A stretch of 38,300 bases of DNA, taken from positions 1-38,300 of the IMG/VR virus record IMGVR_UViG_3300043313_001951, one strand, 5' to 3'. The notes under the pieces were generated by a model. The model saw nothing but the letters and a program-made list of their open reading frames with translations, was not told the origin of the DNA and did not search any database. This document shows, one piece after another, positions 3,174 through 30,170 of this stretch (positions are counted from its first letter, which is position 1; the number at the start of each line of letters is the position of its first letter). This DNA is from a virus. The translations under genes were made by a program, and so were the position numbers.

Positions 3174-4775
3174 TCAGCGTCGGTAGAACGGGCTGTTGAT
3201 CTGCTCCACGTACGGCACGGTCTCGATCATCGAGCAGGCGCAGGCCAGCGCGGCGGAGTCGACGTAGTCATCGTGGGCGTCGCGCTCGTTGGGGGCCTCG
3301 ATGAGGAGGTACTGGCCCTTCATGACCTTCTCGGCATCGACCATCTGCTGGCGGAACCGTCGCCACACCCGGGTGCGCCGGGCCTTGGAGTGGCCGGGGT
3401 ACACGAACATCTTGCGCTGGATCAACTGGATGAGGTGCTGCCAGCGCTCGCTCTGGTTCTTCGAGTCCGACGAGAACGCATGCACCTCACAGCGTGAGCC
3501 CATCAGGCGCTTGAACCGGTCGGCCACGGCGCTGCCCATTCCCTGGGCATCCACCCCCATGAAGGCCACGTTGTAGGGATCCAGGAACTCCATGATCTCC
3601 CAGTACTGCTCCTCCCACTCCGTGTTCTGGACCTCCAGCCAGTTGAGGATCCGGTGCTCCCGGTAGCCCGCCGGGTCCGGGAAGTCCCAGTCGACCCACA
3701 TCACCGTCACGACCGTGGAGTCCTTCACCCGGGCCGGGTCGATGCCGACCACTACCGGGGTGCGCGTCCAGCCGTGGACGAGTTGCATGCTCGGATCGGC
3801 CAGGTAGTCCAGGTCGTCCTCGGTGATCAACATGCCTCGGTCGAGTTGCCACTTCAAGGCGAACGACATCTGGAACTCTTCGGAGTCCTCACCGACACGT
3901 CGCTTCTCGTTGACGATGAACCGGGCGTAGTCGGGGTTGTACTTCGAGACCACCCGGTAGTCGAACTCAAAGTGGTTCTGCCGGGACCGCTTGTTGGTGT
4001 GCCGCCGCTTGTTGAGGTTGATGGCCTTGTAGAAGTCGCCCTTGTGGTAGCCGGGCGTGCCGATCTTGACGATGCTCCCGGCGTAGAAGGAGAGCATCGG
4101 GTGGATCGACTTGCGGATCACTCCCTCGTCGGCGTCCTGGCACTCGTCGATCACGATGATGTGGTACGACGCACCCTCGATCTTGGCTCGGGGGTTGGCG
4201 GTTTGACGACGGGCGAACGAGCCGCCCCTGAGCCGGATCAGCTTGGACTTGCCGTCGACGCGCTCGTCGATCTCCGGGTCGAGCAGCATCTCCTGGGCCC
4301 GGTCACTGGTGAGCCGGGTGACGATGCGTCCGAACACGATGTCGGCCTGGTCCTCGACGGGGGCGAAGATGCCGACCATCAGGCCCGTCTTGAAGCGCTC
4401 CAGGATCGGGAACGTCAGGGCCAGCTTGGGCAGCAGGACCATGCACCCGGCCAGCACGGTGGCGATCGTCTCGGACTTCCCACTCTGGCGGGCCTGGAGA
4501 CCGGTGATCTCCTCGGCGTCCTTCAACACCAGGCTCTCGACGATCCGATAGGCCACGGCACGCTGGTAGGGGAACAGTTCGAACCCGGCCAACTCCTCGC
4601 AGAACAAGATGATCCGCTGGATCAGTTGATCGACGAACCCCGCCATATCAGGGTCAAGGTCGATGACCTCTTCTGGCTCCTCATCGACAAGTAGCGCCGG
4701 ATCGACATCGCTCTCGTCGTCATCTTCGGGCGGTGCGTACCCGAGATCGGTGATCAGTGCCACGGAGCACAGCAT
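3174..4775 (-). CDS. terL: Terminase large subunit (packaging ATPase and nuclease)
   Basis: A 533-residue phage packaging motor that translocates DNA into the prohead and cuts the concatemer. The ATPase domain has a Walker A-like QARQSGKSE at residues 94-102 and Walker B IIVIDE at 206-211, followed by CQDAD. The RNase H-like nuclease domain has its first acidic residue in VVVGIDPARVKDST (D346), a second in FMGVDAQGMG (D409) and a last cluster in AHDDYVDSAALA (D502, D503, D506). The length is normal for the family. The N-terminal 45 residues are very acidic. No convincing ribosome-binding site precedes ATG 4775, and GTG 4763 is an alternative start. No small terminase subunit was recognised with confidence; the genes upstream are candidates. 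Confidence 0.97.
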   Translation of the reverse strand: MLCSVALITDLGYAPPEDDDESDVDPALLVDEEPEEVIDLDPDMAGFVDQLIQRIILFCEELAGFELFPYQRAVAYRIVESLVLKDAEEITGLQARQSGKSETIATVLAGCMVLLPKLALTFPILERFKTGLMVGIFAPVEDQADIVFGRIVTRLTSDRAQEMLLDPEIDERVDGKSKLIRLRGGSFARRQTANPRAKIEGASYHIIVIDECQDADEGVIRKSIHPMLSFYAGSIVKIGTPGYHKGDFYKAINLNKRRHTNKRSRQNHFEFDYRVVSKYNPDYARFIVNEKRRVGEDSEEFQMSFALKWQLDRGMLITEDDLDYLADPSMQLVHGWTRTPVVVGIDPARVKDSTVVTVMWVDWDFPDPAGYREHRILNWLEVQNTEWEEQYWEIMEFLDPYNVAFMGVDAQGMGSAVADRFKRLMGSRCEVHAFSSDSKNQSERWQHLIQLIQRKMFVYPGHSKARRTRVWRRFRQQMVDAEKVMKGQYLLIEAPNERDAHDDYVDSAALACACSMIETVPYVEQINSPFYRR

Positions 4776-15738: not shown

Positions 15739-16073
15739 CAGTTGCTAACACTACTAGCAACTATGTCCTACGGACCACTACTCCATTAGTCGTAGGGAGT
15801 TGCCAACCACCCGTGGGTGCACCGCCCCCGGAGGGGGGCGGTTGATCATAATGGTGGGGGCGTTGCCCCCACCATTGTGCACAATGGACGTGGCGTAGCC
15901 ACGTCCGAGTTGCTAATGGGCCATGCTCCGCATGGCCCATTAGTTGCTAATGGGGCACGTGCAACGTGCCCCATATGTGTGCATCATGCACGCCGTAGGC
16001 GTGCATGAGTTGCTAATGGCGTGGCTTCGCCACGACATACTGCCCATGATGTGGTTGCCGTAGGCACCCACAT
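15739..16073. repeat. Array of perfect triloop hairpins separated by AGTTGCTAAT words
   Basis: A non-coding stretch with at least seven strong inverted repeats in 230 bases: 15822-15841 (loop of four), 15850-15876 (12 bp, loop GTT), 15886-15906 (9 bp, GTA), 15913-15943 (14 bp, TCC), 15950-15974 (11 bp, GCA), 15985-16007 (10 bp, GTA), 16020-16034 (6 bp, TTC) and 16049-16073 (10 of 11 bp, GTA). Stem sequences all differ. A palindrome ATTGTGCACAAT lies at 15874-15885. AGTTGCTAA occurs at 15740, 15908, 15942 and 16008, with inverted forms near 15755 and 16106. An origin, a cruciform-type promoter or protein-binding region, or a structured RNA are all possible. Confidence 0.85.
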
Positions 16074-16450
16074 GCGCTGGGTGTGGAGGGGTTGGAGGGG
16101 TGCGTGAGCAACTAGGGAGCGTGGACGTGGGCACGTGGGGGTGCATGTCGTGGTCATGGTGGGTGACCATGGGCCACGTCCCATGGCGGCTTGGTGGTGC
16201 TCCCGGGGCTGGGGTGTGTGCGTGTGTGGTGATACCCAGCTATGCCCGGCCATGTGGGTGCCGCTCGATGCGGCGATGTGCGCGGTGGGAGTGTGGACGT
16301 GGGGCGCACGCTGGGGCTCGATCGCTACAGGGCCCTGAGAGCGTTTGGGGTGGCCGTTTGGCATGAGGAGGCCGAGGTGTCTGTTGCGTCGATTGTGGGG
16401 GCACGTGGGGGCCAATGGGGGCATTCTGGTGGGTAGGTCCGGGACGCAAG
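16074..16450. other. G-rich region without a gene
   Basis: About 370 bases strongly biased to G (and T) on the plus strand, with runs such as GGAGGGGTTGGAGGGG near 16085-16101, and GTGGACGTGGG twice (about 16121 and 16293). The open frames here are random in composition, with no ribosome-binding site or codon bias, so I see no gene. G-quadruplex or R-loop formation is conceivable. Together with the hairpin array it makes the largest non-coding gap of the window. Confidence 0.6.
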
Positions 16451-16479
16451 AAACCCCCTGGTCAGCGACCAGGGGGTTT
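16451..16479 (-). terminator. Strong terminator of the SNF2 operon
   Basis: A perfect 13-base-pair stem, AAACCCCCTGGTC with GACCAGGGGGTTT, and loop AGC. Read on the minus strand it is followed by CTTGCG. A second stem CGGGGC-CTT-GCCCCG lies at about 16500-16515, closer to the stop at 16522. Together they end the leftward transcript. Confidence 0.88.
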
Positions 16480-16521
16480 CGAGCATGAACACCGTGATGA
16501 CGGGGCCTTGCCCCGTGCGGG

Positions 16522-18249
16522 TCACGGCTTGCGGGTGCGCCCCTCGAACCACGTGGTCATGGCCTGGAGCATGACCGACTCGTCGGACATGGTGACCGGC
16601 TTCCCGGCGTTCACGGCGTCGCAGATGCGGGCCTTCATCTCCAGGACCGACCACATGGCCATGTCGAAGGTCTCGTCGCCGTTGTCGTAGGCCGCCTGGA
16701 GGACGTGCCAACGCACACCCTCGCCCCGGGCCGCCCGGGCCCGGGACACGTCGTCGGCCCGGAGGATGCGCCGGGCAGCCTGGGCCAGGTCACCGGCCGA
16801 CCAGGGGACCTGGACGAAGATGGCATCGGCGGCGGCGGTCAGGGTGACCCCCACGCCAGCGGTGCGAAGCTGGGCCAGGAGGATGTCGACGTGGCCGGTC
16901 TGGAAGTCGTCGATGATGTCGGTCCGGTGCTGGCCCGTGACCTTGCCGTTGAGGATGCCGACCCGGGCAGGCTTGCCGTCGATCCGCACCTTGCTCAGGC
17001 CCTTGTACAGGCTGGCCAGGGCGTCCTCGTGCCAGTAGAACATGATCACCGGCTTGCCCGCCTCGATGCCCACGGTGTCGACGAGGTAGTCCACGGCGGC
17101 GTCGCCCTTGGCCGCACCGGCCTCGGCCCACAGGGCCTGCATGCGGGTCAGGGCCTCGGCGCGGCTCTTGCGCCACATGGCCTCGGGACCCTGCTCCTCC
17201 AGGACCACGGCCAGGAATTCATCTTCGAGGCGCTTGTACCGGGCCAGCTTGCCGTTCAGGGCGATGGGCTGGACGTGCCAACCGCCGTGGGGCAGGTTGC
17301 CGATGTCGTGGGACTCACGGCGCACGTAGACCGTCTCGCGGAGGTGCATGTGCATCTCGGGCATGCGCTCGGCGTTGCACCCGGCGTAGCTGTAGCCGAA
17401 GCCGTTGTGCTGCGGGTTGCAGTAGCGGAAGGCGAACTGCTGGGCCGTGCCCACACCGGGGAACGACGTCACCAGGCGCTTGCCGCCCAGGATGGTCAGG
17501 GGCAGCAGGGCCTCGATGGGCCGGTTGCTCAGGAGGGTGCCCGATGCGCCCACGATGGGGATGCGGTGGACCCGGCAGGCGTCGCCCACCGTGACCATCA
17601 GCTTGGCCCGGGACGTGGGGCTGCCCGGCTTGCCGTCGGCACCCTTGTCGCGGTGGATCTCGTCACGCACGATGACGGCGGCGTCGAGGACCGTGTTGGA
17701 CAGGACGAACCGCTTGCGGTCGTCGAGACCCGTGGTCATCCAGGCCCGCATGGTCAGGGGGTCGTCGCTCAACCACAGGACGTCGGCCTGGGGCAGGACC
17801 ACGTTGCCAGCGGCGTCGTGCTCGACCTTGCGGCCCTTGATCTGGGCGATGGTCAGCCCGGGGAAGGCAGCCCGGAGGTCGCTCGACCAACCACCGAACG
17901 TGACCGGCGGGGCGATGACGAGGGCGTGCTTGCCCGGGTTGGCGGCGAGGATGGTGGCGATGCGGGCCTGCATGACCTGCGTCTTGCCCAGCCCCATGTC
18001 GTCGCCCACGAAGGCGCAGTCCCACGTGGCCAGGGCCCGGTCGAGGTACAGGTGGGCGACCGCCTGGTGGGGCAGGAACGGCCGGGCCATGCCCGCCACG
18101 CGCACGTCCACGTCGGTGGTCAGGCTGGCGGACAGGGCGGCGATGGCGCTCATGTCCATGATGGGCGACACGGCCGGGGCGACGGCGGCGTCCGCACGTG
18201 CGTTCAGCAGGGCGAACAGGTCGTCGTGGGGGGAAGGGGTGGTGGTCAT
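16522..18249 (-). CDS. SNF2-family DEAD/H-box helicase
   Basis: A 575-residue superfamily-2 ATPase. Motif I is DDMGLGKT (residues 83-90), motif II is DEIH (196-199), motif III is GASGT (234-238). In lobe 2, motif V is LRTAGVGVTLTAA and motif VI is QAARRILR, which holds the arginine finger. The GLGKT/DExH combination with a Q-x-x-R-R-x-x-R end is typical of SNF2/Swi2 translocases and of phage helicases used in replication or recombination. It has no extra DNA-binding domain, so it is a minimal form. The leader has AGAGGAG and a likely -10 TACACT about 40 bases upstream. It is the last gene before the hairpin array. Confidence 0.92.
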   Translation of the reverse strand: MTTTPSPHDDLFALLNARADAAVAPAVSPIMDMSAIAALSASLTTDVDVRVAGMARPFLPHQAVAHLYLDRALATWDCAFVGDDMGLGKTQVMQARIATILAANPGKHALVIAPPVTFGGWSSDLRAAFPGLTIAQIKGRKVEHDAAGNVVLPQADVLWLSDDPLTMRAWMTTGLDDRKRFVLSNTVLDAAVIVRDEIHRDKGADGKPGSPTSRAKLMVTVGDACRVHRIPIVGASGTLLSNRPIEALLPLTILGGKRLVTSFPGVGTAQQFAFRYCNPQHNGFGYSYAGCNAERMPEMHMHLRETVYVRRESHDIGNLPHGGWHVQPIALNGKLARYKRLEDEFLAVVLEEQGPEAMWRKSRAEALTRMQALWAEAGAAKGDAAVDYLVDTVGIEAGKPVIMFYWHEDALASLYKGLSKVRIDGKPARVGILNGKVTGQHRTDIIDDFQTGHVDILLAQLRTAGVGVTLTAAADAIFVQVPWSAGDLAQAARRILRADDVSRARAARGEGVRWHVLQAAYDNGDETFDMAMWSVLEMKARICDAVNAGKPVTMSDESVMLQAMTTWFEGRTRKP

Positions 18250-18356: not shown

Positions 18357-19100
18357 TCAGCCGCCGAACCGGGCGGCGCAGATGGGGCCGATGCCCCGGG
18401 CGACGGAGTCGGCATCCTCCAGGGGACGACCGCAGATGCCGCACGTGCTCGTGAGGTGGCCGTAGGCCGCCATCGCCGCCTGGGGGTCGGCGGCGATCGC
18501 ACGAAGCTCGGCCTCGATCTCGCCCCGGTAGGTGGCCCCCGGCTTCTGGTTGCCGTAGCGCTTGCCCTTGCCGTACTCGGCGGCGTCGGAGACGAACGTC
18601 CACCCGGCCCACTTGCCCGTGGCCACGTTGTCGATCTTGACCTTCAACCGGGTGTCGCCACCGGGGACGGCGTAGCGGCCGCTGGGGACGCTGGACAGGT
18701 CGAGACCGTTGGCCGCACGCTCGGTGGCCACCTCACGGCCCGCCTCGCCCCGCAGGGTCATGAGGGCCTGCTTGGCCAGGAGGAACGTGGCCCGGGACTC
18801 GGCCCCGAGGAAGTCGCGCACCATGTCCTGGACGGGCTGGGGGATGGCCGCACCAAGCTCGGTGATCCGGACGAACAGGCCCCGGATCTGGACGGCGCAG
18901 TCGGCGGCGCAGGCCGGGCAGTACGAGTGCCACGCCTTGGACCCCGTGGCCACGGCGGCGTAGGCCGTGCCCTGCACGAGGACGGCGTTGCAGGTGACGC
19001 AGTGCATCGGGCTGCCGTCGCGCTTCGTGACGAAGCGGGCGACGATGACCTTGCTGTACTCCATCTGGAGGGCGGTGGTGGGGGTCGGGGTGGTGCTCAT
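18357..19100 (-). CDS. Two-zinc-ribbon protein with DUF6011-like end
   Basis: A 247-residue protein from ATG 19100. The N-terminal part has MHCVTCNAVL and, further on, YCPACAADC, a four- to five-Cys ribbon. The middle is helical with a beta segment (RLKVKIDNVATGKWAGWTFV). The C-terminus, TCGICGRPLEDADSVARGIG and then PICAARFGG, is the DUF6011 signature (CxxCGRxL...S...GxGPxC), found widely in actinobacterial and phage proteins. Likely nucleic-acid-associated; activity unknown. The leader has GAGAGGA and a -10 TACATT. Confidence 0.88.
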   Translation of the reverse strand: MSTTPTPTTALQMEYSKVIVARFVTKRDGSPMHCVTCNAVLVQGTAYAAVATGSKAWHSYCPACAADCAVQIRGLFVRITELGAAIPQPVQDMVRDFLGAESRATFLLAKQALMTLRGEAGREVATERAANGLDLSSVPSGRYAVPGGDTRLKVKIDNVATGKWAGWTFVSDAAEYGKGKRYGNQKPGATYRGEIEAELRAIAADPQAAMAAYGHLTSTCGICGRPLEDADSVARGIGPICAARFGG

Positions 19101-21030: not shown

Positions 21031-21711
21031 TCACTTGAGGTACAGGTACCGCCCCGACCAGTCGCACTTGCTGATCAGCCGGGCGAAGCTGGCGTCGTCG
21101 AGGAGGTTGAACCGGACGTGCTTGGCCGGGGCCTTCCACCCGGCGGGCTTGAAGATGTCGCCCGTGCGGACGTCCAGGAAGGCGTGGACCGAGCGGGCCG
21201 AGCCGTCGGCGTCGCACTGGACGATCCGGGAGTACTTGCCCCGGGGCGGCTGCTGCTCGAACCGGATGCCGTTGTCGTAGCCCCGCTGGCGGTAGTTGGC
21301 CTCCAGGGCGTCGAGCCAGGCGAAGATGCGCGACGACATGTCGGGCGGGGTGTGGTTGACCCGGCGGGCCTGGGCCAACTCCAGGGCGATCTCCGAGCGG
21401 GCCGTCTCGCAGGCGGCGGACCACAGGGCCGGGCTGGCCTCGTGGGCGTCGACACCCTGGCGGGCCAGGACCACGTGGGCCCGGTCCCGCACGGCGTCCT
21501 CGCCGCTGCCGGTCTCGGCCACGCTGGCGATGGTCGCCCGGACCTCGGGCGACAGGGCGGCGAACACGGGGTGATCCGCGATCGAGGTGGTGGGGGCCGC
21601 AGCCTCGCGAGCGGCCAGGAACTCGGCACGCTCGGCCGGGCCTGCGTCGTCCCGGTCGTACGCCTCGGAGGCGGCGAGGAGGCGGTCGTTGGTGTCAGGG
21701 GTGTCGGTCAT
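21031..21711 (-). CDS. Hypothetical protein
   Basis: A 226-residue protein from ATG 21711, fixed by the leaderless promoter. Residues 1-130 are helical and acidic (NDRLLAASEAYDRDDAGPAE, VRATIASVAETGSGEDAV). Residues 130-226 form a mixed domain: RIFAWLDALEANYRQRGYDNG, SRIVQCDADGSARSVHAFLD, TGDIFKPAGWKAPAKHVRFNL. The latter half resembles a common single-domain phage protein with a GDI-KPAGWK-PAKH-RGNI-type motif of unknown function. Confidence 0.82.
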   Translation of the reverse strand: MTDTPDTNDRLLAASEAYDRDDAGPAERAEFLAAREAAAPTTSIADHPVFAALSPEVRATIASVAETGSGEDAVRDRAHVVLARQGVDAHEASPALWSAACETARSEIALELAQARRVNHTPPDMSSRIFAWLDALEANYRQRGYDNGIRFEQQPPRGKYSRIVQCDADGSARSVHAFLDVRTGDIFKPAGWKAPAKHVRFNLLDDASFARLISKCDWSGRYLYLK

Positions 21712-21718
21712 GGGGGCC

Positions 21719-21749
21719 AGCATAGCGGGGTATGGGCACAACCGTGCAC
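21719..21749 (-). promoter_or_regulatory. Leaderless promoter with conserved upstream block
   Basis: Minus-strand TATGCT (21719-21724), seven bases before ATG 21711, with the second copy of the 28-base block at 21722-21749 (GTGCACGGTTGTGC then CCATACCCCGCTAT). Confidence 0.75.
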
Positions 21750-21778
21750 ACACGTGCACATTCCCCCGGAACGCAGAA

Positions 21779-25487: not shown

Positions 25488-26309
25488 TCAGGCGACCTTG
25501 GACTTGCCCTTGCGGGCCTTGGCGGCGTCGATGGACGCCGAGATCGTCGACATGATGTCGTCGCTGATGGCCGGGGTCTCGACCTTGGCCGGGACCGGGA
25601 CACCATCGGCCTTCTGGTTCACGTAGGCGGCGACGGCCGGGGCCGTGTCGTCGGTGATCACCGGGGTGTCGATGCCGATGGCGTCGATCAGCGACGCCAC
25701 CATGTCGACCTCGGCCTTGGCGTAGGACACCGTGATGGCCGGGATGCGGGCACGCACCTGGTCGGCGGTGTGCACGAGGATCAGGTCACCGTCGGCGGTG
25801 AGCAGGGCGTAGCGGGCCGGGCCACGCATGGCCACCTTGACCAGGGCGCAGACCTTGCGCTTGGCCATGCCTGCGAGCAGGACGGCGTACGCCTTCTCGA
25901 TGGCCGGGTTGCTGCGGCCCTTCTCGCGCTTGGGGCGCACCTGGAGCACGTCCTCAGCGAGGTACGCACCCATGTCCTTGACCGGGACGAACGTCTCGAC
26001 CTCGGCCAGGCCCTTGGGGCTGGTGCAGTCAGCGATCTCGTCGTCGGTCAGGACGACCCACGCACCGGAGTCGGCCTCGGCCATCCGCAGCACGTCGGCG
26101 GAGTCGATGACCTCGCCCGTGTCCTTGCGGACCGGCGACCGGCCGACGGCGATGAACTGACCGTCGACCTCGATGAACTCCTTGCGGGCCACCCGGGTGG
26201 ACTCGGTGCCGCTGTACACCGACAGCGGGATGGCGATCAGGCCCACGCTGAGCGTGATCGTGTTGGTGGCCCGCTGCGGGGCCGGTGCGATTGCGGTGTG
26301 CTGTGTCAT
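25488..26309 (-). CDS. ku: Ku homologue (DNA end-binding protein)
   Basis: A 273-residue protein from ATG 26309, with a leaderless TACACT seven bases upstream. It follows the bacterial Ku plan: TITLSVGLIAIPLSVYSGTE at the start (bacterial SISFGLVNIPVKLYSATE), VVLTDDEIADC, VETFVPVKDMGAYLAEDVLQ, then KAYAVLLAGMAKRKVCALVK and ALLTADGDLILVHTADQVR. Ku forms a ring-shaped homodimer that loads on double-strand ends and recruits LigD. The C-terminal 70 residues are Asp/Ala-rich and end in a Lys-rich tail. Actinobacteriophages such as Omega and Corndog encode Ku and use host LigD for end joining. No ligase is seen in this window. Confidence 0.88.
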   Translation of the reverse strand: MTQHTAIAPAPQRATNTITLSVGLIAIPLSVYSGTESTRVARKEFIEVDGQFIAVGRSPVRKDTGEVIDSADVLRMAEADSGAWVVLTDDEIADCTSPKGLAEVETFVPVKDMGAYLAEDVLQVRPKREKGRSNPAIEKAYAVLLAGMAKRKVCALVKVAMRGPARYALLTADGDLILVHTADQVRARIPAITVSYAKAEVDMVASLIDAIGIDTPVITDDTAPAVAAYVNQKADGVPVPAKVETPAISDDIMSTISASIDAAKARKGKSKVA

Positions 26310-26316
26310 GGGGATC

Positions 26317-26322
26317 AGTGTA
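26317..26322 (-). promoter_or_regulatory. Leaderless-type -10 (TACACT) of ku
   Basis: Minus-strand TACACT, seven bases before ATG 26309. It is separated from the AAA+ gene only by a terminator hairpin, so ku has its own promoter. Confidence 0.65.
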
Positions 26323-26326
26323 CACG

Positions 26327-26358
26327 TGTGGGGGGAGATGCCAACATCTCCCCCCACA
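26327..26358 (-). terminator. Strong hairpin between the AAA+ gene and ku
   Basis: Perfect 14-base-pair stem TGTGGGGGGAGATG/CATCTCCCCCCACA with loop CCAA. It starts 11 bases beyond the AAA+ stop. No T tract follows on the minus strand, but the stem is very stable. Confidence 0.78.
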
Positions 26359-26368
26359 TTTGTGCAAC

Positions 26369-27703
26369 TCAGTCGAGCAACGCCTGGAGGGCGTCACGGG
26401 GGTCGTTGTTGTTCAACTCGGCCTGCCGCCGCTCCTCCTCCATCATGAGGTTGATGGAGCGGTCGGTGATGATGGCGTCGACCGTGTCCTGCTCGGTGAT
26501 CTGGAACATGCCCTTGAACACCTCCAGGGCCAGGTCCACACCGAACGCCGCGATGTCCTTCTCCAGGCGCATGAGCGCCGCCGTGCCGACCGGGGTCCGC
26601 AGGCCCCGGCTGTTCATCTTGCGGGCGGTGCGGACGCACTCACCGAGCAGACGCACGGCCGGGCTCTTGATCAGGCGGGACTCGACATCGTCGTCGTAGC
26701 CCCAGGCGATGTGGCGGAACCGGTTGATGAACGCCTCGTTCATCTGGCCCATGCCCCGGTAGTTGCCGTCGTTGTACGTGCCGACGATCCACAGGTCCGG
26801 GTGGGCCGTGACGACCTCGGGCATGAAGAGCCCGCCCTTGGTGACGGCCTTGCCCCGGTTGACGAACTGGTGGCGGCTGTCGCACAGCGGGTGGAGGCTG
26901 GACGTCACGCGCTCGCCCATGGCGTTGATCTCGTCGAGGTACAGGATGCCCCCGCACTCAGCGGCCAGGGCGACGACGCCCGGGAGGTTGACGAGCCGAT
27001 CGATACCGACCTCAGGGTCGGCGTAGGTCACGGCCTGACCGAACAGGTCGAAGTCGGTGACCCCGGACGAGCCCGACAGGGTGAAGATCGGCATCGGCTT
27101 GGGGTAGCCCATGGCGTCGGCCCAGGCGATGGCCAGCACCTCGACGAGGATCGTCTTGCCCGCCTGGGTGTCGCCCTTCAACATGATGTTGGCCGGGTGT
27201 CCCTCGTTCTCGGCCCGGTGGGAGTCACCGGTGAACGTGAGGAGGAACTGGACGTCGGTCATCCCGTTCATCATCTGACGGTTGACGTACCGCTTGACCT
27301 TGGTGCGGCTGGGGCGCAGGTGGTCGAGCCGGGGGTCCATCGGATCGGTGATCGGCGTGACCGGCTGACGGGCCACGGTGATGGCCTCGCCGGTGACCGG
27401 GTTGAGCACGGTGGCCATGGGGCCGATGGCGGTGACCGGGGCCTCGACGGCCTGGACCGGCGCGGTGTGGGCGGTGCCCTGGATGGCCGGGCTGTCGATG
27501 CCCATGGGCTCGTCGCTCAGGAGGCGAGGCAGGATGTAGTCCTGCGTGCCGTCCTCGAACTTGACGGTGATCTTGCGCTGACGACCCTGGGGGTCGTCAT
27601 CGGGGAACGGGTGGTTGTCGACGATCGTGACGATCTCGTCGGCCAGCAGACCCGAGATGACTCGGTACTGGAAGCCGGGGATGAGGAAGTGGGCCTTGGC
27701 CAT
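26369..27703 (-). CDS. MoxR/CobS-like AAA+ ATPase
   Basis: A 444-residue protein from ATG 27703 with GAAGGA upstream. Residues 1-60 form a small beta-rich start and residues 60-135 are a Pro/Thr linker. The AAA+ core has Walker A GDTQAGKT (177-184), DFDLFGQ (217-223), Walker B ILYLDEIN (253-260), sensor 1 VGTYND (307-312) and an arginine finger in NEAFINRFR (322-330). The DFDLFGQ step and NRF finger are typical of MoxR/CobS-type ATPases, which work with a VWA partner to remodel or load proteins. The divergent neighbour at 27855 is such a partner. In CobST the pair drives cobalt insertion; no corrin genes are here, so the substrate is unknown. Confidence 0.9.
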   Translation of the reverse strand: MAKAHFLIPGFQYRVISGLLADEIVTIVDNHPFPDDDPQGRQRKITVKFEDGTQDYILPRLLSDEPMGIDSPAIQGTAHTAPVQAVEAPVTAIGPMATVLNPVTGEAITVARQPVTPITDPMDPRLDHLRPSRTKVKRYVNRQMMNGMTDVQFLLTFTGDSHRAENEGHPANIMLKGDTQAGKTILVEVLAIAWADAMGYPKPMPIFTLSGSSGVTDFDLFGQAVTYADPEVGIDRLVNLPGVVALAAECGGILYLDEINAMGERVTSSLHPLCDSRHQFVNRGKAVTKGGLFMPEVVTAHPDLWIVGTYNDGNYRGMGQMNEAFINRFRHIAWGYDDDVESRLIKSPAVRLLGECVRTARKMNSRGLRTPVGTAALMRLEKDIAAFGVDLALEVFKGMFQITEQDTVDAIITDRSINLMMEEERRQAELNNNDPRDALQALLD

Positions 27704-27854
27704 GTCGGTCGGTGTCCTTCGTGGGGTGTCAGGGGAACGAGGCATACCATACTCTGATATCAGTCGGTCCCCAACCTCGTGCACCATCTTTCTTTCTTCC
27801 CCACTCTCGTGCACAACGTTGCAGTCTGGTTCACAGGGGTGTATCTTGTCATCC
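27704..27854. promoter_or_regulatory. Divergent promoters of the AAA+ and VWA genes
   Basis: Rightward: TTGCAG (27819-27824), 17 bases, TATCTT (27842-27847), seven bases, ATG 27855, a near-ideal leaderless promoter. Leftward: minus-strand TTGGGG, 17 bases, TATGGT near 27745, with a 40-base leader containing GAAGGA. A GATATC palindrome lies between the leftward boxes. Confidence 0.75.
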
Positions 27855-30170
27855 ATGGCCCCTGCAACCACACCCCGTAAGCGCCGCCAGAAGGCGACCA
27901 CTGAGATGGGTCGTCAGATGATGCAGCGTGAGCGCCAGCGTCTGGCCAAGGAGCAGGCTGACCTCGGTGAGAAGATGGCCAAGGAGGCCATCGCCAACCG
28001 TGAGATGGGTCGCCCCATCGAGAAGGCCCCGAAGATCCAGGTCGGCGTCAACCGCTCGATCGTGCGGCGCTGCGCCGCCGTGCTCGCCTCCGAGGGCGTG
28101 GCCGTGCCGATCAAGGCCGTGGCTGCCCAGGGCAACGAGGGCATGCGTGCGTGGACCGACTTCGAGCGCATCGCCATCCGCTTCGTGCCTCACGAGGACG
28201 TGCGCCTGCTCGCCGCCACCCTGCGTGGCCTCATGTACCACGAGGGTGGTCACATCCGCTGGACCGTCCCGTTCCGGGAACTGGCCGCACTGGCCGGGGT
28301 CACCCTGCCCGCCGGTGGTGCCATGAGCACCAGCACCAAGGCGCTGCACACGGCGTGGAACTGCCTGGAGGACCAGCGCATGGAGACCGCCGTGGTCTCG
28401 GACTCACCCCGCAAGGCGGCGTACTTCACCCCGCTGGTGATGACCGAGCACGCGGCGACGCTCGACAACATGGCGGCGAACTGGCCGCTGCTGGTGTGGC
28501 GGCGCTACCTGCCTTCCAAGCTGCGCGTCGAGGCCCGCCGCATGTTCGTGGTCAAGCACAACATGCTGAGCGGTGACGGTGACGAACTGGCCACCATGCT
28601 CGACGACGTCGTGACCCGCTACGTCATGGCCACCGACGCCGCCGACATGTGGGCCTGCGTCGAGGCGATGCTGATCATCCTGCGCCGGTGCCAGCCGTTG
28701 GCTTCCAACATGGAGGACGCCGGGCACACCCAGCAGGGCGGACGTGAACTGCCTGAGGACTTCCAAGGGCTGACCATCCCGGTCTCCCCCAGCATGATGG
28801 ACGACGACGCCGCTCCCGAGATGGACGAGGACGACGATGTCGACATCGACGACGACGAGAGCCTGGCCGACCTCGACGAGGACGAGATCCAGCACGTCAT
28901 GGAGGTGCTGTCGCACTCCATGCTCAGCCCCGAGGTGCTGCTGGAGGTGCGCTACGTCATGGAGGGCTCGGAAGGCTCCAAGGCCGATGAGGGCTCCAAG
29001 GACGAGGACGAGGACTTCGCAGGCTCGCCCGGCGGGCTCCTCGACGACGACGACGAGGACGACGAGGACGACGACTCAGACGGGACAGAAGGCTCCGACG
29101 ACCAGGCAGAAGAGGACGACGCCGATGAGGCTCCAAGCGAGCGCGACGTCCGCCAGGGCAACAGCCCGGCGGACGACAGCCAGCCGGATGACGGTGGCGA
29201 TGAGGACGACGCCGATGACGCCGACGAGGACGATGAGGCTGACGAGGGCGACGACGAGGACCACGGCGGCAGCGACTCTGGCACACACGCCAAGGACGAG
29301 GAGCCCGAGGACGAGTTCACCCAGGAAGATCTCGACGAACTGCTCCAAGACGCCGAGGAGGAGCGCTACAACCAGCGCGATCTCGACGGTGACATGGAGG
29401 CGTTCCATGACGCCAACGACAACAGCGTCACCGACCTGGACACCTACAGCGCCGGGTTCGAGACCAACGACGTCCTCATCTCCCAGGCCGAGTCACTGGC
29501 CCAGGACATCGAGGATGCGTTCCATGCCCACACCATGGACCGTCAACCGGCGTGGGTCGAGCAGCAGCGCCGTGGCGTGCTGAACGTCGGTCGCTACGCC
29601 ACCCGTGCGCCGGGAGACACCGAGTTCTTCCGCCAGTGGACCGAGGACGACCAGCCCGGCTACGACATCGCCGTGTCGGTGCTCCTCGACTACAGCGGTT
29701 CCATGAGCGCCCACACGGCGCAACTGGCCCAGGCGGGCTACGCCTGCAAGCTGGCCTGCCAGAAGCTGGAGATCCCGTGCACCGTGGTCCTGTGGGACAC
29801 CGAGGCCCTGACCCTGTGGGACGCCAACGAGGTGGCCGACGGCCTGCCGACCATCCAGGCTGCCGGGGGCACCGTGCCCGACATGGCCCTGGTCGACCTG
29901 GACAACCAGCGCTGCGACCGTGAGAAGCACCTGGTGCTGATCATGACCGACGGCCAGTGGCAGGGACGCTGGGCCAACGGTGGCGGCACCCTGGCCTGGT
30001 ACAAGGACGACGGGCGCATCATGCTCGGCTTCGGCTTCGCTCGGGACGCCCGGGCGGCTCAGAACCACGCTCGCTCGATGGTGGGCCGGGGCTGCGACGA
30101 GGCGTTCGGCATCGTCGACCTGATGGCCATCCCGGAGTTCCTGGAGTCAGCCCTGCTCGAACTGGTCTGA
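27855..30170 (+). CDS. CobT-like VWA protein with HEGGH motif
   Basis: A 771-residue protein. The N-terminal 60 residues are a basic coiled coil. Residues 100-260 carry YHEGGHIRW (H129-E130-x-x-H133) and, 39 residues on, NCLEDQRME (E172). That is a gluzincin-type HExxH...E layout also seen in CobT-like proteins. Residues 275-560 are extremely acidic, with Asp/Glu runs. The C-terminal VWA domain has the MIDAS start DYSGSMS (D612, S614, S616) and LIMTDGQW. The acidic linker plus VWA is the CobT/ChlD architecture that docks on a AAA+ ring (the divergent 26369 gene). It ends in a hydrophobic helix-like segment. Whether the HEGGH is an active peptidase is unknown. Confidence 0.9.
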   Translation: MAPATTPRKRRQKATTEMGRQMMQRERQRLAKEQADLGEKMAKEAIANREMGRPIEKAPKIQVGVNRSIVRRCAAVLASEGVAVPIKAVAAQGNEGMRAWTDFERIAIRFVPHEDVRLLAATLRGLMYHEGGHIRWTVPFRELAALAGVTLPAGGAMSTSTKALHTAWNCLEDQRMETAVVSDSPRKAAYFTPLVMTEHAATLDNMAANWPLLVWRRYLPSKLRVEARRMFVVKHNMLSGDGDELATMLDDVVTRYVMATDAADMWACVEAMLIILRRCQPLASNMEDAGHTQQGGRELPEDFQGLTIPVSPSMMDDDAAPEMDEDDDVDIDDDESLADLDEDEIQHVMEVLSHSMLSPEVLLEVRYVMEGSEGSKADEGSKDEDEDFAGSPGGLLDDDDEDDEDDDSDGTEGSDDQAEEDDADEAPSERDVRQGNSPADDSQPDDGGDEDDADDADEDDEADEGDDEDHGGSDSGTHAKDEEPEDEFTQEDLDELLQDAEEERYNQRDLDGDMEAFHDANDNSVTDLDTYSAGFETNDVLISQAESLAQDIEDAFHAHTMDRQPAWVEQQRRGVLNVGRYATRAPGDTEFFRQWTEDDQPGYDIAVSVLLDYSGSMSAHTAQLAQAGYACKLACQKLEIPCTVVLWDTEALTLWDANEVADGLPTIQAAGGTVPDMALVDLDNQRCDREKHLVLIMTDGQWQGRWANGGGTLAWYKDDGRIMLGFGFARDARAAQNHARSMVGRGCDEAFGIVDLMAIPEFLESALLELV

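Follow-up and report, generated by a model that had tools for sequence, protein, structure and literature searches.

Palindromes are found in many replication origins, in most cases singly or in small numbers and with conserved sequence, and lambda-type origins contain repeated palindromic initiator sites (iterons). Several described systems share features with the hairpin array analyzed here, a gene-free stretch of phage DNA beside a helicase gene. The early promoters of phage N4 combine short stems with a three-base loop, a C-G closing pair and a 5'G..A3' loop, features that determine their extrusion (PMC4496689). However, the N4 hairpins are promoters for a vRNAP of ~3,500 residues and have contact bases in their stems that are conserved, whereas the array, for which no polymerase of that kind was found, lines up as many as eight stems without a common sequence. 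The hrs of baculoviruses are palindrome clusters in virus DNA that serve as replication origins (PMC6669502), but there a single imperfect palindrome, to which IE-1 binds, is repeated, while the stems of the array are each different and near perfect, and the viruses are unrelated. Prophages of the cluster A mycobacteriophages Alma, LadyBird and RedRock provide a further likeness, as these actinophages have a gene-free origin region of ~600 bp with fast-diverging sequence (PMC7157519). In contrast to the array, which is known here from DNA sequence alone, those RNA origins function in the prophage state and have a non-coding RNA expressed next to parABS, and a DNA-type hairpin array is not described there. 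Lambda-type iteron origins resemble the array in their repeated palindromic sites, and the pT181 double-strand origin in its hairpin extrusion (cruciform) at the origin (PMC5703833); the array differs from these in having many different hairpins instead of one and a bidirectional skew instead of rolling-circle replication, and no initiator gene was identified. The nearest named phages by TerL, Streptomyces phage BRock (Borockvirus, ~113 kb) and others (~46% identity), gave no match to the SNF2-type helicase, and BRock has no array of hairpins like this one. In the open-access literature that was searched, which is only part of the whole, no description of an array of this kind was found.

The hairpin array and its interleaved words

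The window, by which we mean the whole stretch of DNA that was analyzed, is a 38,300-bp virus record of a tailed phage, and its source is an uncultivated phage of probably ~110 kb. The hairpin array lies in gene-free DNA between the terminator-like hairpin of the helicase gene at 16450-16480 and the next leftward genes, and comprises the following features, listed together with their neighbours:

3174-4775, minus strand: TerL gene of the window
15740-15762: facing word copies AGTTGCTA-acactac-TAGCAACT, an 8-bp inverted repeat with a 7-nt loop; palindromic initiator-site-like element, palindromic forms of which recur in relatives
15767-15796: imperfect long-loop stem CCTACGGAC / GTCGTAGG, read directly from the sequence
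15798-15807, plus strand: AGTTGCCAAC, word copy with one mismatch
15808-15819: CACCCGTGGGTG, counterpart of ACCCATGGGTGCTAC in several relatives
15821-15842: core hairpin H_A, ACCGCCCCC-GGAG-GGGGGCGGT, 9 bp, loop GGAG; contains the cumulative GC-skew minimum at 15829
15842-15854, plus strand: conserved core word TTGATCATAATGG, for which several relatives have TTGATCTTAATGG
15850-15876: core hairpin H_B, AATGGTGGGGGC-GTT-GCCCCCACCATT, 12 bp, loop GTT
15886-15906: hairpin, 9 bp, C-GTA-G loop
15908-15917, plus strand: word AGTTGCTAAT
15913-15943: hairpin, 14 bp, TCC loop
15942-15951, plus strand: word AGTTGCTAAT
15950-15974: hairpin, 11 bp, GCA loop, T-A closing pair
15984-16008: hairpin, 11 bp, C-GTA-G loop
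16008-16017, plus strand: word AGTTGCTAAT
16016-16038: hairpin, TTC loop, 6 perfect bp at 16020-16034, 9 of 10 bp (one mismatch) over longer arms
16049-16073: hairpin, 10 of 11 bp, C-GTA-G loop
16084-16449, plus strand: G/T-rich non-coding DNA separating array and terminator, with positive skew in 11 of 11 phages
16450-16480, minus strand: terminator-like hairpin 3' of the helicase gene, also in relatives
16522-18249, minus strand: SNF2-type helicase gene, marker of the clade

Consistent with the hairpin array proposed in a preliminary description of this DNA, eight near-perfect hairpins are packed into the 253 bp from 15821 to 16073; all but the first (seven in total) have triloops, and the closing pair is C-G in every array hairpin except that at 15950-15974. 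Compared to dinucleotide shuffles of 15739-16073, triloop stems were in large excess: six stems of at least 6 bp were observed versus a shuffle mean of 0.16 and a maximum of 3 in 1000, and five stems of at least 9 bp versus 0.005. Folding measured against dinucleotide shuffles, a check that the same description had put forward, was likewise beyond chance, with z-scores of about -11 (RNA, -10.7 for the plus and -10.5 for the minus strand; DNA, -11.8).

The interleaved word, AGTTGCTAA(T/C), occurs three times as AGTTGCTAAT (starts 15908, 15942 and 16008), with related copies AGTTGCTAAC at 15740 and AGTTGCCAAC at 15798. It had been described as a constant spacer, and it does repeat among the stems, but it is not purely a spacer because its CTAAT part and the partner ATTAG sit within the 14-bp stem at 15913-15943. 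The likeness to a CRISPR layout in reverse holds for appearance and nothing further. A CRISPR array as such was rejected, as the spacing of the words is irregular (58, 110, 34, 66) and the variable units are palindromes.

Open reading frames overlapping the array were not conserved in relatives, the comparison yielding one 18-residue match (E=0.001) while both flanking-gene controls were clearly matched; the relatives thus have no conserved reading frame across the array, in agreement with its earlier designation as non-coding. A search of the window against Rfam matched only a tRNA and gave no match for the array. Elsewhere in the window, adjacent genes for a Ku-like DNA-end-binding protein, a CobS-like AAA ATPase (PHROG 249) and a CobT-like protein occupy 25488-30170, and near the helicase the DUF7717 and DUF6011 proteins, both from families of unknown function, are encoded at 21031-21759 and 18357-19100, respectively.

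Conservation of place and architecture in relatives

Megablast and blastn searches against named phages returned no DNA relative. An exact word-pattern search gave no match for a first pattern and, for a second, many contigs with a chance-like word pair, and the window helicase as query had no close match, its alignment covering generic SNF2 motifs. Clade contigs were gathered from IMG/VR via TerL relatives and the helicase peptide pattern RDEIHRDKG, which in bacterial genomes hit one unrelated contig; a DNA pattern search for the core hairpins found no members outside the known clade. Ten further contigs, all from metagenomes and without known hosts, carry the helicase, and the aligned ones are 46-53% identical to the window protein. 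The contig G028 (IMGVR_UViG_3300044699_000165) has a TerL identity of 95% and a helicase with many stops, which probably reflects sequence quality and makes it unreliable.

All 11 helicase contigs carry a hairpin array, and its location is constant: 3' of the helicase gene and past the terminator of that gene. The array is weak in two of them, with H_A and H_B degenerate in G046 and H_B lost in G008; relatives that keep the genes and lack the palindromes, a possibility raised in the preliminary description, were not found among them. Distant TerL relatives (G031, G036, G037 and G040; 50-55%) had neither the helicase nor a comparable array. Furthermore, no long-stem cluster is denser than the array in the window or in three of the long relatives (n=4), and in the remaining one, G020, the array ranks second. 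Only a core of ~50 nt could be aligned, in which H_A, TTGATCTTAATGG and then H_B follow each other in conserved order (examples from relatives are TACGCCCC-CGGA-GGGGCGTA for H_A and AATGGTGCCCC-TTGC-GGGGCACCATT for H_B). The non-core hairpins were mostly unalignable, some being duplicated within one phage or shared at other positions. Hairpin duplications were seen in G043 and G045. At 2167-2319 of the G043 locus (L190), a hairpin around CCCTTGC-AGC-GCAAGGG is repeated several times within the array, and because of this recurrence arrays seem to grow by duplication.

Pairs were counted in registers set by hand, starting at the loop in H_A and at the outer anchor in H_B, because the MAFFT alignment of the core hairpins was wrong. 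In pairwise comparisons of the phages, both sides of a pair had changed with pairing kept 229 times (135 in H_A and 94 in H_B) and one side only had changed in none, while a non-pair was involved in 26 comparisons for H_A and 21 for H_B; the comparisons are non-independent through phylogeny, which reduces the weight of these counts. Such two-sided changes across relatives match the earlier suggestion that structure and not sequence is kept. In each phage, the shape, loop type and place of up to eight hairpins are kept while their letters turn over, beside a protein that is itself only 46-53% identical.

Near-perfect arms, every one of a different sequence, could also be a mutational by-product, if template-switch correction perfected inverted repeats and palindromes duplicated with no selected function of the hairpins; the duplicated hairpins of G043 and G045 fit this, and template switching homogenises inverted-repeat arms (PMC8604942, PMC7202029). 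However, the array has a fixed location in 11 phages and is missing from the other intergenic DNA of these genomes, there is a preference for particular loops and closing pairs, and the core elements are in conserved order, all of which makes a purely mutational origin very improbable.

Loop chemistry and the question of DNA or RNA hairpins

We compiled 62 hairpins, of which 46 were perfect and in which 571 of 588 pairs were Watson-Crick, with 2 G-T and 2 A-C pairs; the hairpin caller requires Watson-Crick pairs beside the loop and isolated mismatches, so that these numbers are biased towards such pairs. RNA helices normally contain far more G-U. The scarcity of wobble pairs is not decisive alone, because, by inspection, perfect stems are likewise found in the terminator hairpins of these phages.

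The loops were significantly different from background. A C-G closing pair was present in 27 of 32 array triloops compared to 161 of 435 background triloops (P=2e-7), and C-GNA-G, read on either strand, in 17 of 32 compared to 33 of 435 (P=4e-10), with 12 on the plus strand; the GNA loops include five GGA loops, most of them from H_A and therefore not independent. Among 26 tetraloops, no GNRA or UNCG was present on the plus strand, and three were present if the minus strand was read. DNA mini-hairpins with GNA or GNNA loops and G-C pairs are exceptionally stable (PMC4686876), and extrusion of the N4 hairpins needs a C-G closing pair plus the loop G and A (PMC4496689). Judged by its letters, the signature of the array, C-GNA-G enrichment with near-absent G-T wobble, is that of DNA hairpins, and the C-GNA-G idea of the preliminary description is borne out by these counts.

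The strongest rival to a DNA origin is a structured non-coding RNA, either free-standing with a regulatory or scaffold role or acting as the primer of an RNA origin as in cluster A mycobacteriophage prophages, with the hairpins as RNA stems. It would accommodate a non-coding region in which both strands fold far better than shuffles and in which paired changes occur among relatives; RNA-based origins of ~600 bp are known in actinophages (PMC7157519), and the G-rich stretch downstream could favour an R-loop. However, only 2 of 588 pairs would be G-U on either strand, folding is without strand bias, and GNRA and UNCG tetraloops are absent on the plus strand while DNA-type C-GNA-G triloops are plentiful. 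Furthermore, there was no Rfam match, and a search covering sigma-70-like promoters found none. The structured RNA considered in the preliminary description thus keeps some standing, but the G-U scarcity, the lack of strand bias in folding and the missing RNA-type tetraloops disfavour it, and we regard it as unlikely.

That the array is a group of N4-type hairpin promoters read by an RNA polymerase of the phage was also put forward earlier, and the C-G closing pair and G..A triloop do fit the N4 extrusion rules. The stems, however, have no contact bases or start-site words in common and differ both within and between phages. No single-subunit RNA polymerase was found in a search for RNA_pol (PF00940) run without a positive control, and the longest open frames in four long clade genomes, the records of which may be incomplete, span 1,081-2,021 codons compared to the ~3,500 residues of the N4 vRNAP. 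These data do not support the promoter proposal, which is scarcely credible.

GC skew, repeated sites and the candidate replication origin

The preliminary description had also raised the idea of an origin, and skew mapping supports it: in each of the five phages whose flanks were long enough for the test (the window, G045, G046, G020 and G023), GC skew reverses at the array. Using 2.5-kb flanks with non-coding DNA masked (the test was also run unmasked), the largest skew jump was located at the array or at most ~1 kb from it in 5 of 5 phages, which are not independent cases because the phages are related. With 5-kb flanks, the array was the top skew peak in four phages, the array of G045 being too near the contig end. 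The cumulative minimum fell within H_A both in the window (15829) and in G046 (105272), and the global cumulative minimum was located elsewhere in G045, G020 and G023. On a local scale, skew was negative in the 300 bp upstream and positive in the 300 bp downstream in 11 of 11 phages; the left-side skew reaches only 2-5 kb in G020 and G023. Gene direction does not explain the reversal, because the genes on either side mostly run in the same direction, though skew can also arise by other routes. The 300 bp upstream have a GC content of 51-64% across phages, modestly under that of the genome in most, and in the window 60% compared to 66.6% for the whole window, without a strong AT-rich element for unwinding. 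In linear coordinates, the array is tens of kb away from the genes for DnaB and PolA, and a gene for an initiator was not identified.

Repeated sites accompany the array. GTTGCTAG occurs 7-14 times per long clade genome (n=4) compared to 0.9-1.6 expected, with 30-50% of the copies adjoining the array, and is accompanied in these genomes by the palindromes TTGCTAGCAA, TTGCTAGTAA and TTGCTATCAA. GTTGCTAR and its palindromic forms cluster at the array, and sites are also found in other intergenic places; by rough gene calls, about half of the non-array sites are intergenic, although intergenic DNA makes up only 11-20%. As candidate initiator sites, the GTTGCTAR half-sites resemble iterons, and a phage operator would look alike. 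In the distant relative G040, GTTGCTAR is in ~20-fold excess, apparently within genes, which suggests codon usage and not a regulatory word.

An operator role belongs to another rival, in which the array would be a boundary between the helicase operon and the leftward operon, formed either by stacked terminators or by an insulator with operators; the hairpins would act in nascent RNA and the words would bind a repressor. The array does lie shortly past the helicase terminator and between two leftward units, the terminator hairpins of these phages are by inspection likewise perfect, short-looped and T-poor, and GTTGCTAGCAAC is also found at other intergenic places. However, none of the array hairpins has a T-tract after its stem, a terminator is already supplied by 16450-16480, and both the skew reversal and the GNA-loop preference would be left unexplained; we consider this explanation improbable.

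The reading we prefer, with moderate confidence, is that the array may well be the origin-of-replication region of a clade of ~100-118 kb phages, combining extrusion-prone hairpins with initiator sites. More tentatively, we propose a tailed-phage origin defined by DNA shape, in which C-GNA-G hairpins with free stem letters would be extruded at initiation and recognized whatever the sequence of their stems, initiator half-sites being interspersed among them. A putative phage initiator would bind the GTTGCTAR half-sites and GTTGCTAGCAAC palindromes in an iteron-like manner (candidate initiator-site DNA, AGTTGCTAGCAACT), and this binding together with negative supercoiling would open the duplex in and beside the array. 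The C-GNA-G stems would then fold into hairpins or cruciforms of DNA, which would keep the two strands separated and/or offer a shape to the helicase loader or primase, and the departure of forks both ways would produce the GC-skew reversal. Under this proposal, stem sequences would drift with pairing kept because only shape is read, perhaps aided by template-switch correction between arms and by hairpin duplication. If it is a true origin, the array would be a natural experiment on whether the structure of DNA, and not its sequence, is what a phage replisome reads, and its independent natural variants could be used to study why hairpins extrude in vivo. An uncultivated phage clade, the nearest named relatives of which are Streptomyces phages, also gains a probable origin.

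Two further features were observed around the arrays of relatives. In G023 (L191), a gene resembling those for cytosine-C5 DNA methyltransferases by eye (~3520-4662, plus strand) separates the array from the helicase terminator and runs against the direction of its neighbours. In addition, a second palindromic word, ATGTCCCTTAGGGACAT / TCCCTTAG, is present near gene starts and at the array in the intergenic DNA of G044, G045, G020 and G023, and is a possible operator.
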